From: an uncultured Clostridia bacterium
GTDB lineage: Bacteria > Bacillota > Clostridia > Christensenellales > UBA1242
Reading direction: 5' to 3'
NCBI GenBank assembly: GCA_945928645.1
Contig: CAMENR010000011.1
Location: 1-34,589 of the forward strand
DNA length: 34,589 nt
Positions 30,628 through 34,333 of this stretch are shown piece by piece. Position numbers and translations under genes: made by a program. Under the pieces are notes generated by a model that did not search any database, had not been told where the DNA came from, and worked only from the letters and a program-made list of their open reading frames with translations. How positions within the stretch are numbered: the stretch's first letter is position 1; every line of letters begins with the position of its first letter.

Positions 30628-31212
30628 TTAGTCGTCATCGTCATCATCGTCATCATCGTCATCATCGTCATCGTCATCGTCGTCATCGTCGCAATCGTCG
30701 CAATCGCAATCGTCATCACAATTACAGTCGTCGTCGCAGTCGCAATCATCGTCGCAGTCGCAATCATCGTTGCAATCACAATCGTCGTCATCACAATTGT
30801 CATGACAATGTCCGCCACAACAGGAGCAATCGTGAGTGCAATCGTAATAATTTTCGTCGTCGTCTGTTGCATATACATTGATGTCCAAATATGCTATCTT
30901 ATAATCAGGATACTGTTGCAAAAGTACATCGTCTTCTGCCACAGGAGGCAAAGACTTACCAAACACAACCAACTCCTCTACCTCGTCGTCAAGCATATCT
31001 TGAAGATACTCTACACATTCGGATTCGTCTTCTACCCCCTCCACTTGTGCAAATTCAAACCCAGGCAAAAAGCCCTTGAACAAGGTCTTTCCCCCTGCAA
31101 CATAACTTGTAATCATTGCCGGAAAGCCAGCAACCATAATTGTATGTTTTTTTAGGTCGTGATTGTAAATAATATCACCAAATTGTTGTTTATTGTTATT
31201 TTCTTTCTTCAT
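30628..31212 (-). CDS. HicB-antitoxin-like domain fused to a Cys/Asp-repeat and poly-Asp tail
   Basis: FLPGFEFAQVEGVEDESECVEYLQDMLDDEVEELVVFGKSLPPVAEDDVLLQQYPDYKIAYLDINV fits the HicB pattern; tail DCTHDCSCCGGHCHDNCDDDDCDCNDDCDCDDDCDCDDDCNCDDDCDCDDC-D20; ATG at 31212 is 7 nt after GAGG. Confidence 0.75.
   Translation of the reverse strand: MKKENNNKQQFGDIIYNHDLKKHTIMVAGFPAMITSYVAGGKTLFKGFLPGFEFAQVEGVEDESECVEYLQDMLDDEVEELVVFGKSLPPVAEDDVLLQQYPDYKIAYLDINVYATDDDENYYDCTHDCSCCGGHCHDNCDDDDCDCNDDCDCDDDCDCDDDCNCDDDCDCDDCDDDDDDDDDDDDDDDDDDDD
30631..30797 (-). repeat. Asp/Cys-coding repeat tract including 20 consecutive Asp codons
   Basis: (GTC/ATC)n on the plus strand at 30631-30690, then repeats of the type gtcgcagtcgcaatcatc. 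Confidence 0.9.
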
Positions 31213-31249
31213 AATCATTCCTCTTATCTTATTATATCAAACTTTTTAT

Positions 31250-31325: not shown

Positions 31326-31610
31326 TTATTCTCCTCTAAATGGGAGCAAAGCAACATTTCTAGCACGTTTAACAGCCACAGTGATTTCTCTTTGGTGCAT
31401 AGCACAAGTGCCTGTTTGACGGCGAGGGACTATTTTCCCTTTTTCTGTTACAAATCTCTTAAGAGTTACAACATCTTTGTAGTCGATAACCTTGCTTCTG
31501 TCGGCACAAAACATACAAACTTTTTTCTTGTTTACTCTCTTTGGCCTTTTAGCAATTTTCTCAGCTGATTCTGCAACTTCTTTTGCAGGAATGTTTTGTT
31601 GTTCTGTCAT
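31326..31610 (-). CDS. rpsR: 30S ribosomal protein S18
   Basis: [48 protein letters not shown]. Confidence 0.97.
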
Positions 31611-31639
31611 TTCATTTCTCCTTTTAATTGGATGTAAAT

Positions 31640-31759
31640 TTATTCTTCACTTTCTTCGTCATCGTCATCATCGTCGTCATCATCGTCATAAGAACAACCA
31701 CAGCAATGTTCACAGTCGTGGTCGCATGACATAAAGAATCTATCATCTATTTCAAACAT
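31640..31759 (-). CDS. 39-aa Cys/His-cluster plus poly-Asp small protein (not in the ORF track)
   Basis: [46 protein letters not shown] 6 nt before ATG; 11 bp after the ssb stop; no ORF overlap on the same strand. Confidence 0.75.
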
Positions 31760-31770
31760 ATTTTGCCTCC

Positions 31771-32163
31771 TTAAAATGGCAAAGTATCGTCCTCAATAGG
31801 TTGAAGTTCTGCCGATTGAGAATCACTTTGCGAAGATTGTTCATTTGAAGTCTTTGAACTCAGAAATTCAACTTCCTCAGCCACAACTTCAGTAACATAT
31901 CTCTTTGTGCCATCTTGGGCATCATAACTTCTGGTTTGCAAACTACCAACAATGCCAGCCTTGCTACCTTTTCTGAGATATTTGTGGCAGTTGTCCGCTT
32001 GAATTCTCCAGACCACAATGTTGATAAACTCGGCATCTCTTTCACCACTTTGAGCAAATCTCTTTGGCACAGCCAATGTAAATCTGCAATAGTTGATACC
32101 ACTGTTTGTGGTGGACAACTCTGGGTCTTTTGTTAAATTTCCAACCAAAATTACTTTGTTCAT
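31771..32163 (-). CDS. ssb: Single-stranded DNA-binding protein
   Basis: MNKVILVGNLTKDPELSTTNSGINYCRFTLAV; C-terminal EDDTLPF. Confidence 0.97.
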   Translation of the reverse strand: MNKVILVGNLTKDPELSTTNSGINYCRFTLAVPKRFAQSGERDAEFINIVVWRIQADNCHKYLRKGSKAGIVGSLQTRSYDAQDGTKRYVTEVVAEEVEFLSSKTSNEQSSQSDSQSAELQPIEDDTLPF

Positions 32164-32189: not shown

Positions 32190-32474
32190 TTAGTCTTTGC
32201 AGACAATAATGTTTCTCAAAATGCTATCAGTAATAAGCAAAAGTTTGCCCATAGCGATGCTTGTTTCTTTTGGGGATTCAAAAGTCATAAGGACATAAAA
32301 TCCTTCCTTTTTGAACTTGATTGGATATGCAAGAGTCTTCATACCCCATTTGTCAATACCGCTTACTGTTCCGCCATTTTGTTCAACATAATTCTTGAAC
32401 TTTGCAATAACCCCTTCTCTTTCTTCTTCAGAAAGTGATGGTGAAATGACATAAAGCACTTCGTATTTTGACAT
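32190..32474 (-). CDS. rpsF: 30S ribosomal protein S6
   Basis: MSKYEVLYVISPSLSEEEREGVIAKF...IDKWGMKTLAYPIKFKKEGFYVLMTF; ATG at 32474 with SD AGGAGG. Confidence 0.96.
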   Translation of the reverse strand: MSKYEVLYVISPSLSEEEREGVIAKFKNYVEQNGGTVSGIDKWGMKTLAYPIKFKKEGFYVLMTFESPKETSIAMGKLLLITDSILRNIIVCKD

Positions 32475-32818: not shown

Positions 32819-34333
32819 TCAATGCTTGGTCAATGTAACCTTGCTACTTGCTGTGGAGCATGCCACCGTTGTGCCACTGGTTGTTGTTCCAATTGTGCTG
32901 TATGGTCCAGCCGAGCCATTGTAGAATGTACTTGCTGGCAAATCTATTGTATATCCACTCTGCAAGTTGTATGGCAGTGTTATGTTTGCAAGTGCAGAGC
33001 ATCCATAAAACATATCAGTAAAGTCTGTGCAACTCTCAAGATTGAAATTGCCAAGATCTAGACTGGTGAGTGATGAGCAATTATTAAACATATTCCACAT
33101 ACCTCTTACTTTACTTGTATCAAAATTACTTACATTTAGACTGGTTAGAGAAGAACAACCCAGAAACATATAGCTCATCCCTTCTACTTTATTTGTATCA
33201 AAATTACTTACATTTAGACTGGTTAGAGAAGAACAACCCATAAACATATAGCTCATCCCTTCTACTTTATTTGTATCAAAATTACTAAGATCTAGGCTGG
33301 TTAGTGAGGAGCAACCATTAAACATCTGAAACATACTTGTAACTTTGCTAGTATCAAAATTATTAAACTCAATTGACCTAAGACTTCTAAAAAAATCTGG
33401 CTCAGAAGGATCTACTACAAATAAACTACCTGAATTTTGTGGAGCATATATTGTCCCTGGAGAGTATATCACTATGGTAGATTTATCACTGCCCCAATAG
33501 GCTGTTACATCACTTATTGTATCAGATGTTACATATGCAGAAGTGTCAGTTTCGCTATTAGTTCCCACAGATACACTATTGGTGAGTCCTGCTATTTCTG
33601 ATTCGACTTTCGTAAATTTTATTGTAGTAGTTGTATTTATTAGAGATGTATAATCACCTATCCTGCTTATCCAGTTCCTTGTAAGGTATGCTACTGTCTC
33701 CACTTCTACATGCTCTGCGGTGGTCAATGTAAAGGCGAATTTGTTGGTGTTGTCGGCTAGGTAACTAGCGACTGTGCCTGGGGTGATTTCGAGGAGCATA
33801 TATATTCTGCCTGTTTCTTGGTAGCCTAGGACTAGTTTTTTGGAAGATAGTGAGGAGTTGTCTATGCCAGAGTTTTTGATAGTAGTTCTTTTGGCAGATA
33901 TGTTAGAGGAAGATAGGTCGCCGAAGTAGTATTTCCTTGTCATATTAGTTACTTTTCCATTGTCGGTTAGGGTTATTGTTAGGTCGTAGTTTTCCATAAG
34001 GTTTTTGTTTTGAAAAGTAAACTCAAACACTACATATGTATTGCTATCGTCCAGTTGTAATGCACTGCTTGTTGCTTCCAAAGTTGCATTTGTTGTTGTG
34101 CCACCATATCCAAAACTTAGGTTACCATTCTTGAATGCAATGGCACTAGAGTCGTTAGTCCTTTGATATGTTGCACTAGTATCGCATACTACTTGTGGTG
34201 TTGGTGTGTATGTAACAAGCAGTCCTGATGTAACATTAACTTGTGTAGCAGCCAGAGCCCAAAATACCAGCCCCACAGCGCCAACAAACACCGCACAGGC
34301 AGTAAATATTAGTAGTGTTAGTCTTTTCTTCAT
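32819..34333 (-). CDS. Exported BspA-like (DUF285) leucine-rich-repeat protein
   Basis: N-terminal signal/TM segment and repeats of MFxGCSSLTSLDLSNFDTxKVxxMxxMF. Confidence 0.9.
   Translation of the reverse strand: MKKRLTLLIFTACAVFVGAVGLVFWALAATQVNVTSGLLVTYTPTPQVVCDTSATYQRTNDSSAIAFKNGNLSFGYGGTTTNATLEATSSALQLDDSNTYVVFEFTFQNKNLMENYDLTITLTDNGKVTNMTRKYYFGDLSSSNISAKRTTIKNSGIDNSSLSSKKLVLGYQETGRIYMLLEITPGTVASYLADNTNKFAFTLTTAEHVEVETVAYLTRNWISRIGDYTSLINTTTTIKFTKVESEIAGLTNSVSVGTNSETDTSAYVTSDTISDVTAYWGSDKSTIVIYSPGTIYAPQNSGSLFVVDPSEPDFFRSLRSIEFNNFDTSKVTSMFQMFNGCSSLTSLDLSNFDTNKVEGMSYMFMGCSSLTSLNVSNFDTNKVEGMSYMFLGCSSLTSLNVSNFDTSKVRGMWNMFNNCSSLTSLDLGNFNLESCTDFTDMFYGCSALANITLPYNLQSGYTIDLPASTFYNGSAGPYSTIGTTTSGTTVACSTASSKVTLTKH
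33121..33354 (-). repeat. 78-bp tandem repeats encoding 26-aa LRR units
   Basis: 'caaaattact' anchors at 33121, 33199 and 33277 and a 'caaaattatt' variant at 33355, exact 78-bp period; copies 33121-33198 and 33199-33276 differ at one base. Confidence 0.93.

Follow-up and report, generated by a model that had tools for sequence, protein, structure and literature searches.

The question raised by this locus is whether a very short open reading frame between ssb and rpsR is a gene of its own and, if so, what its product might do. The window, i.e., the whole stretch of 34,589 nt that was analyzed, contains on its minus strand rpsF for ribosomal protein S6 (32190..32474, PF01250, with a Shine-Dalgarno (SD)-supported ATG at 32474), ssb (31771..32163, PF00436, E=4.3e-35), and rpsR for ribosomal protein S18 (31326..31610, PF01084, E=5.8e-26). 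A 504-aa protein with a signal-like start adjoins rpsF (32819-34333, minus strand); its repeated SLTSLDLSNFDTxKVxxMxxMFxxCSSL-like units give it the appearance of a leucine-rich surface protein. The initial annotation had placed an ORF of 39 codons between ssb and rpsR, and its sequence, coordinates, and start context all proved to be correct. This microORF extends over 31640..31759 on the minus strand and starts with an ATG at 31759, 11 nt past the ssb stop codon. Its SD sequence AAGGAGG (31766..31772, minus strand) overlaps the ssb stop codon, and the spacing of 6 nt between GGAGG and ATG makes it a strong SD at the proper distance, as is characteristic of a protein-coding gene. The stop codon is followed after 29 nt by the ATG of rpsR, which has a separate SD sequence (AAGGAG, 31618..31623, minus strand). 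The encoded microprotein has two conspicuous features. Five Cys are clustered within 11 residues (12-22; 31694..31726, minus strand), four of them in the arrangement Cx3Cx2Cx2C and the fifth in addition to it, and ten consecutive Asp codons, a mixture of GAC and GAT, lead into the sequence EESEE (Asp run: residues 25-34; 31658..31687, minus strand). The microORF is present in a single copy in its own genome.

Start signals of this quality mostly mark genes in the window. Twelve strict pairs of SD and start codon (AAGGAG or AGGAGG together with an ATG) were found on both strands of the 34.6 kb, and the microORF was among them. Ten of the other 11 pairs begin ORFs of 72-209 codons, mostly recognizable ribosomal protein genes, and the remaining one is an accident of four codons. 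When the 163-nt ssb-rpsR gap was subjected to 5,000 dinucleotide shuffles, a single one produced an ORF that was led by an SD and reached 39 codons or more. Pfam, NCBIfam, and PDB sequence searches yielded nothing for the microORF: no Pfam family came up to E=1, and none of the PDB chains was similar or matched the sequence in a meaningful way. We infer that the microORF is translated, and the 39-residue protein with its Cys cluster and its Asp run is probably real. The occurrence in one draft genome only (30 contigs), together with Asp codon repeats that resemble those found some 1 kb further downstream, would fit a chance ORF or a MAG assembly artefact. However, such an origin is very unlikely in view of the shuffling result, the lack of a second genome copy of the Cys-cluster insert as the source of a misjoin, and the recurrence of the motif in other genera described below.

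The conservation of the site was analyzed in related genomes. As had been proposed, rpsF-ssb-rpsR is conserved and normally uninterrupted, and relatives retain it with a short gap between ssb and rpsR. In contrast to the gap of 160 nt found here, the gap is 18-41 nt and free of ORFs in all 10 congeneric species that have the junction. A positional counterpart of the microORF was absent from 30 whole-genome loci and from 74 clostridial junctions of a second, partly overlapping collection, in which the gap is mostly 8-60 nt and the few longer gaps contain no similar ORF. A search with the 39-aa sequence in 299 genomes of the family retrieved only its own copy with high confidence; the rest of the match list consisted of a 28-aa ORF in genome G250 and of fragments of unrelated proteins or frames. 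Because the frame was found neither in the 10 congeners nor at any of the other clostridial junctions examined, the sequence comparison characterizes the insertion as specific to one species among the genomes examined. The notion of a conserved component of the operon thus had to be given up, as the intergenic insert is missing in close relatives, while the proposal of a translatable gene at this site in this genome stands.

Although no counterpart was found by position, the Cys spacing recurs elsewhere in the family. The motif CxxDCxxCxGC was found nine times in 311 family genomes, versus not at all in the reversed control. Four of the nine matches lie in unlikely frames, and the other five lie in plausible proteins, i.e., the microprotein described here, an SD-led ORF of 28 aa in G250, an SD-led ORF of 34 aa in G135, a GrpE protein (G028), and a pyruvate:ferredoxin oxidoreductase (PFOR, G096). 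The last of these has the sequence CNSDCVNCIGC in a linker (L206, G096:C3). The 28-aa ORF is located immediately upstream of typA. In G135, two tandem ORFs of 33 and then 34 aa, which are similar to each other, lie between hrcA and grpE, and a 22-aa ORF MDKKCNGECTNCGQCNCDNDEE occupies the same interval in G016; typA, hrcA, grpE, and PFOR were named from reading the translations, and GrpE additionally by a Pfam model. In both G016 and G135 the GrpE protein itself has an N-terminal extension rich in Cys and acidic residues. Weaker relatives with differently spaced Cys precede grpE in genus g51 (20 aa and 48 aa in G090, 64 aa in G111), and the 48-aa and 64-aa ORFs resemble each other. Among the loci inspected were also a 44-aa ORF with an SD, MCENCNSDCPVCGCPIVNDEVKGEGCINGACPTNKEEEQEESCN, which lies past an SDR-like gene on its downstream side (L187, G069:C102), and SD-led ORFs of 58 aa with 15-19 Cys and Pro runs (L231 and L232 in G031 and G069), which represent a different type of Cys-rich peptide.

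We define a group of Cx3Cx2Cx2C microproteins as the products of SD-led ORFs of less than 50 codons with this spacing. It comprises the microORF described here, those of G250 and G016, and both ORFs of G135, and this count shows recurrence rather than an unbiased frequency of microORFs, several of the loci having been fetched by motif. A wide SD-led Cx3Cx2Cx2C pattern at the DNA level gave mostly out-of-frame matches and served only for choosing the in-frame cases. The peptides align on the Cx3Cx2Cx2C spacing. The alignment of the microprotein with the 28-aa peptide of G250 is ungapped with 46% identity over 26 residues; all four Cys of the latter are matched, and none of 2,000 core shuffles scores as well. 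The G250 peptide is not conserved inside its own genus, and likeness among short, compositionally biased peptides can also reflect convergence. The start signals and the recurrence of the Cys spacing in other SD-led microORFs make a translated acidic microprotein that is a candidate metal binder, as suggested initially, the best reading of the locus.

The position between ssb and rpsR could suggest a dedicated partner of S18, acting as a zinc donor or acidic chaperone, or else an acidic nucleic acid mimic acting on SSB. It had been pointed out that the S18 protein carries CxxC and C..H residues, and this was confirmed, since it has the zinc-site form with CxxC and CxxH. However, this site is present in 71 of 72 S18 sequences independent of any microORF, the microORF is missing from all 10 congeners, and the related microORFs of other genera adjoin typA or grpE and are not near rpsR. 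A specific role for either of the two neighbors is accordingly very unlikely, and this part of the initial proposal was not retained.

The proximity to rpsR also raises the question whether translation of the microORF, rather than its product, might be important. The Cys cluster and the ten Asp codons might pause or destabilize the ribosome, in response to Cys supply or Mg2+, and thereby tune the translation of rpsR, with the peptide itself being inert. In mycobacteria, short Cys-rich ORFs are cysteine-responsive attenuators, according to the title of Canestrari 2020 as cited in PMC9094748, and stretches of roughly ten acidic residues close to the N-terminus have been described to lead to intrinsic ribosome destabilization (PMC9718836). 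The arrangement would be suitable, with the Asp run beginning at residue 25 and rpsR only 29 nt beyond the ORF. As in mycobacteria, a short Cys-rich ORF is located upstream of an operon gene; however, the polycysteine attenuators are leaderless, whereas the microORF has a strong SD, is internal to an operon, and lacks an attenuator structure. An RNA attenuator was in fact rejected as a candidate, as neither an alternative structure nor a terminator was found: folding gave a z-score of -1.23 and was equalled by 23 of 200 shuffles, and a terminator-type T run is absent between the microORF and rpsR. In addition, rpsR has its own strong SD, and the parallel microORFs of other genera retain Cx3Cx2Cx2C without an Asp run, which argues against a codon sensor, because a sensor would not need such a spacing. 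A regulatory upstream ORF is thus unlikely.

A further clue comes from the gene directly after rpsR, which encodes a protein of 196 aa (30628..31218, minus strand). No family match was obtained for it in Pfam, NCBIfam, or a PDB profile search, and a HicB protein is thus not recognizable at the sequence level. However, its AlphaFold2 model exceeds a pLDDT of 90 over the greater part of the core, and the best 12 matches to PDB structures are all HicB-type antitoxins or toxin-antitoxin complexes (probability 0.95-1.00, E 0.02-0.16). Therefore, the core is predicted to adopt a HicB-type alpha/beta fold. The neighbors of the gene are rpsR and a gene for a RecD2 helicase; HicA was not seen among the neighboring ORFs by inspection. 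The gene follows rpsR throughout the genus, and one relative was found in another genus. A long acidic tail with poly-Asp was likewise seen at the end of a HicB-like protein from another genus (L170, G033:C9:21438-21692). The tail of the 196-aa protein begins with CTHDCSCC and continues with CDDDC repeats and an Asp run. In the genus the tail is variable, is composed of Cys, Asp, and His, and starts with CxHDCxxC in most species. It is fast-evolving and occurs in two types, one with CDDDC repeats and one that is acidic and ends in YMEY[KR]DDD.

The motif CxHDCxxC is also present in the microprotein. A DNA search in 12 congeneric genomes yielded 11 matches, versus none in the reversed control; seven belong to the tail of the HicB-fold protein, one to the microORF, and three to one radical-SAM-like protein. 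At the level of sequence, the microprotein and the HicB-fold protein of the same operon thus have a rare motif in common, a link between the microORF and the Cys/Asp tail that the initial annotation had not drawn. The shared motif, the acidic run, and the common operon could indicate that the microORF is a recent partial duplicate of this tail, a non-functional or barely functional fragment that has gained a start. In a core-shuffle test the similarity to the HicB-fold tails was moderate, with a best value of z=3.7 for the tail of one congener (G003). A simple origin from the tail encoded in its own genome was rejected, however, as this alignment is no better than shuffles (z 0.7). The perfect SD and the intact frame also stand against a decaying fragment, as do similar microORFs in genera in which no HicB-fold gene of this kind was detected. 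A duplicate of the tail is therefore improbable.

Another fusion partner of Cys-rich and acidic segments in the family is GrpE. At least four Cys within the first 90 residues were found for GrpE proteins from 61 of 118 loci, with up to 26 Cys, and all 61 loci belong to the family of the window, outside its genus. A Cys-rich GrpE N-terminus of this kind was absent both from the 14 loci that represent other families of the order and from the nine loci of the genus of the window. The extensions are long, rich in Cys, Asp, Glu, and His, and contain CxCxxxCxC repeats (L251, L265, L270, L273-L359; e.g., L309, L331, L350). The HicB-fold tail thus occurs in the very genus that lacks the extension of GrpE, a complementary distribution that is no more than suggestive. 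It is tempting to speculate that this one family of Clostridia with small genomes has a common metal- or redox-sensing module of Cys and acidic residues, which is either fused to proteins linked to proteostasis and translation (GrpE, HicB-fold protein next to rpsR) or free, with microORFs in the same operons (before grpE, typA, and rpsR), and that free and fused forms exchange metal and thus tie chaperone and ribosome function to the metal or redox state; this wider view is tentative. A limited search of the open literature returned neither a description of small proteins encoded within rpsF-ssb-rpsR nor one of GrpE extensions rich in Cys, and the recurrent microORF pattern was likewise not found described in the literature searched.

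Taken together, we consider it most likely, with modest confidence, that the microORF is a real, translated, and young microgene, the product of which is a free-standing module for the binding of metal (Zn or Fe) or for thiol buffering. The microgene would have been inserted between ssb and rpsR in one species, and recently on an evolutionary scale. Its product would be a small cytosolic peptide that combines the thiolate cluster Cx3Cx2Cx2C with a carboxylate-rich tail. The thiolates could bind a metal ion or a cluster, the radical-SAM-type spacing Cx3Cx2C not being decisive for the kind of metal, while the acidic run might add weak metal sites or solubility. The peptide might then serve as a free-standing buffer or donor, and it would be the stand-alone counterpart of the low-complexity Cys/acid segments that are fused to the N-terminus of GrpE and to the HicB-fold protein as its tail. 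Metal binding and the buffering role are both proposals. If the microORF is translated, it would be a clear example of a very young microgene within an operon that ranks among the best conserved in bacteria. The same Cys spacing in other genera suggests a class of small proteins that has been overlooked by annotation owing to their length. The connection with the N-termini of GrpE and with the tail of the HicB-fold protein leads to the idea that this lineage couples products of chaperone and ribosomal genes to the metal or thiol state.

The proteins discussed here can be compared with several known systems. The 196-aa protein and the HicB antitoxin family are predicted to be alike in fold, but in the former a Cys/Asp tail replaces the DNA-binding domain. 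The microprotein has the Cys spacing Cx3Cx2C of the radical SAM motif CX3CX2C, and its CxHDCxxC motif is also present in the radical-SAM-like protein of its congeners; however, it has neither the barrel domain nor a SAM site, so that the ligand spacing alone is shared with radical SAM enzymes. Bacterial metallothioneins of the SmtA/BmtA type are small, Cys-rich, cytosolic proteins that bind metals via thiolates. The microprotein differs from them by its 39 aa, its five Cys with Cx3Cx2Cx2C spacing, its Asp run, and the lack of a match to a known family in Pfam or the PDB. Nevertheless, it resembles them in being small, Cys-rich, and presumably cytosolic, and by analogy metal binding via thiolates would be expected for it as well.
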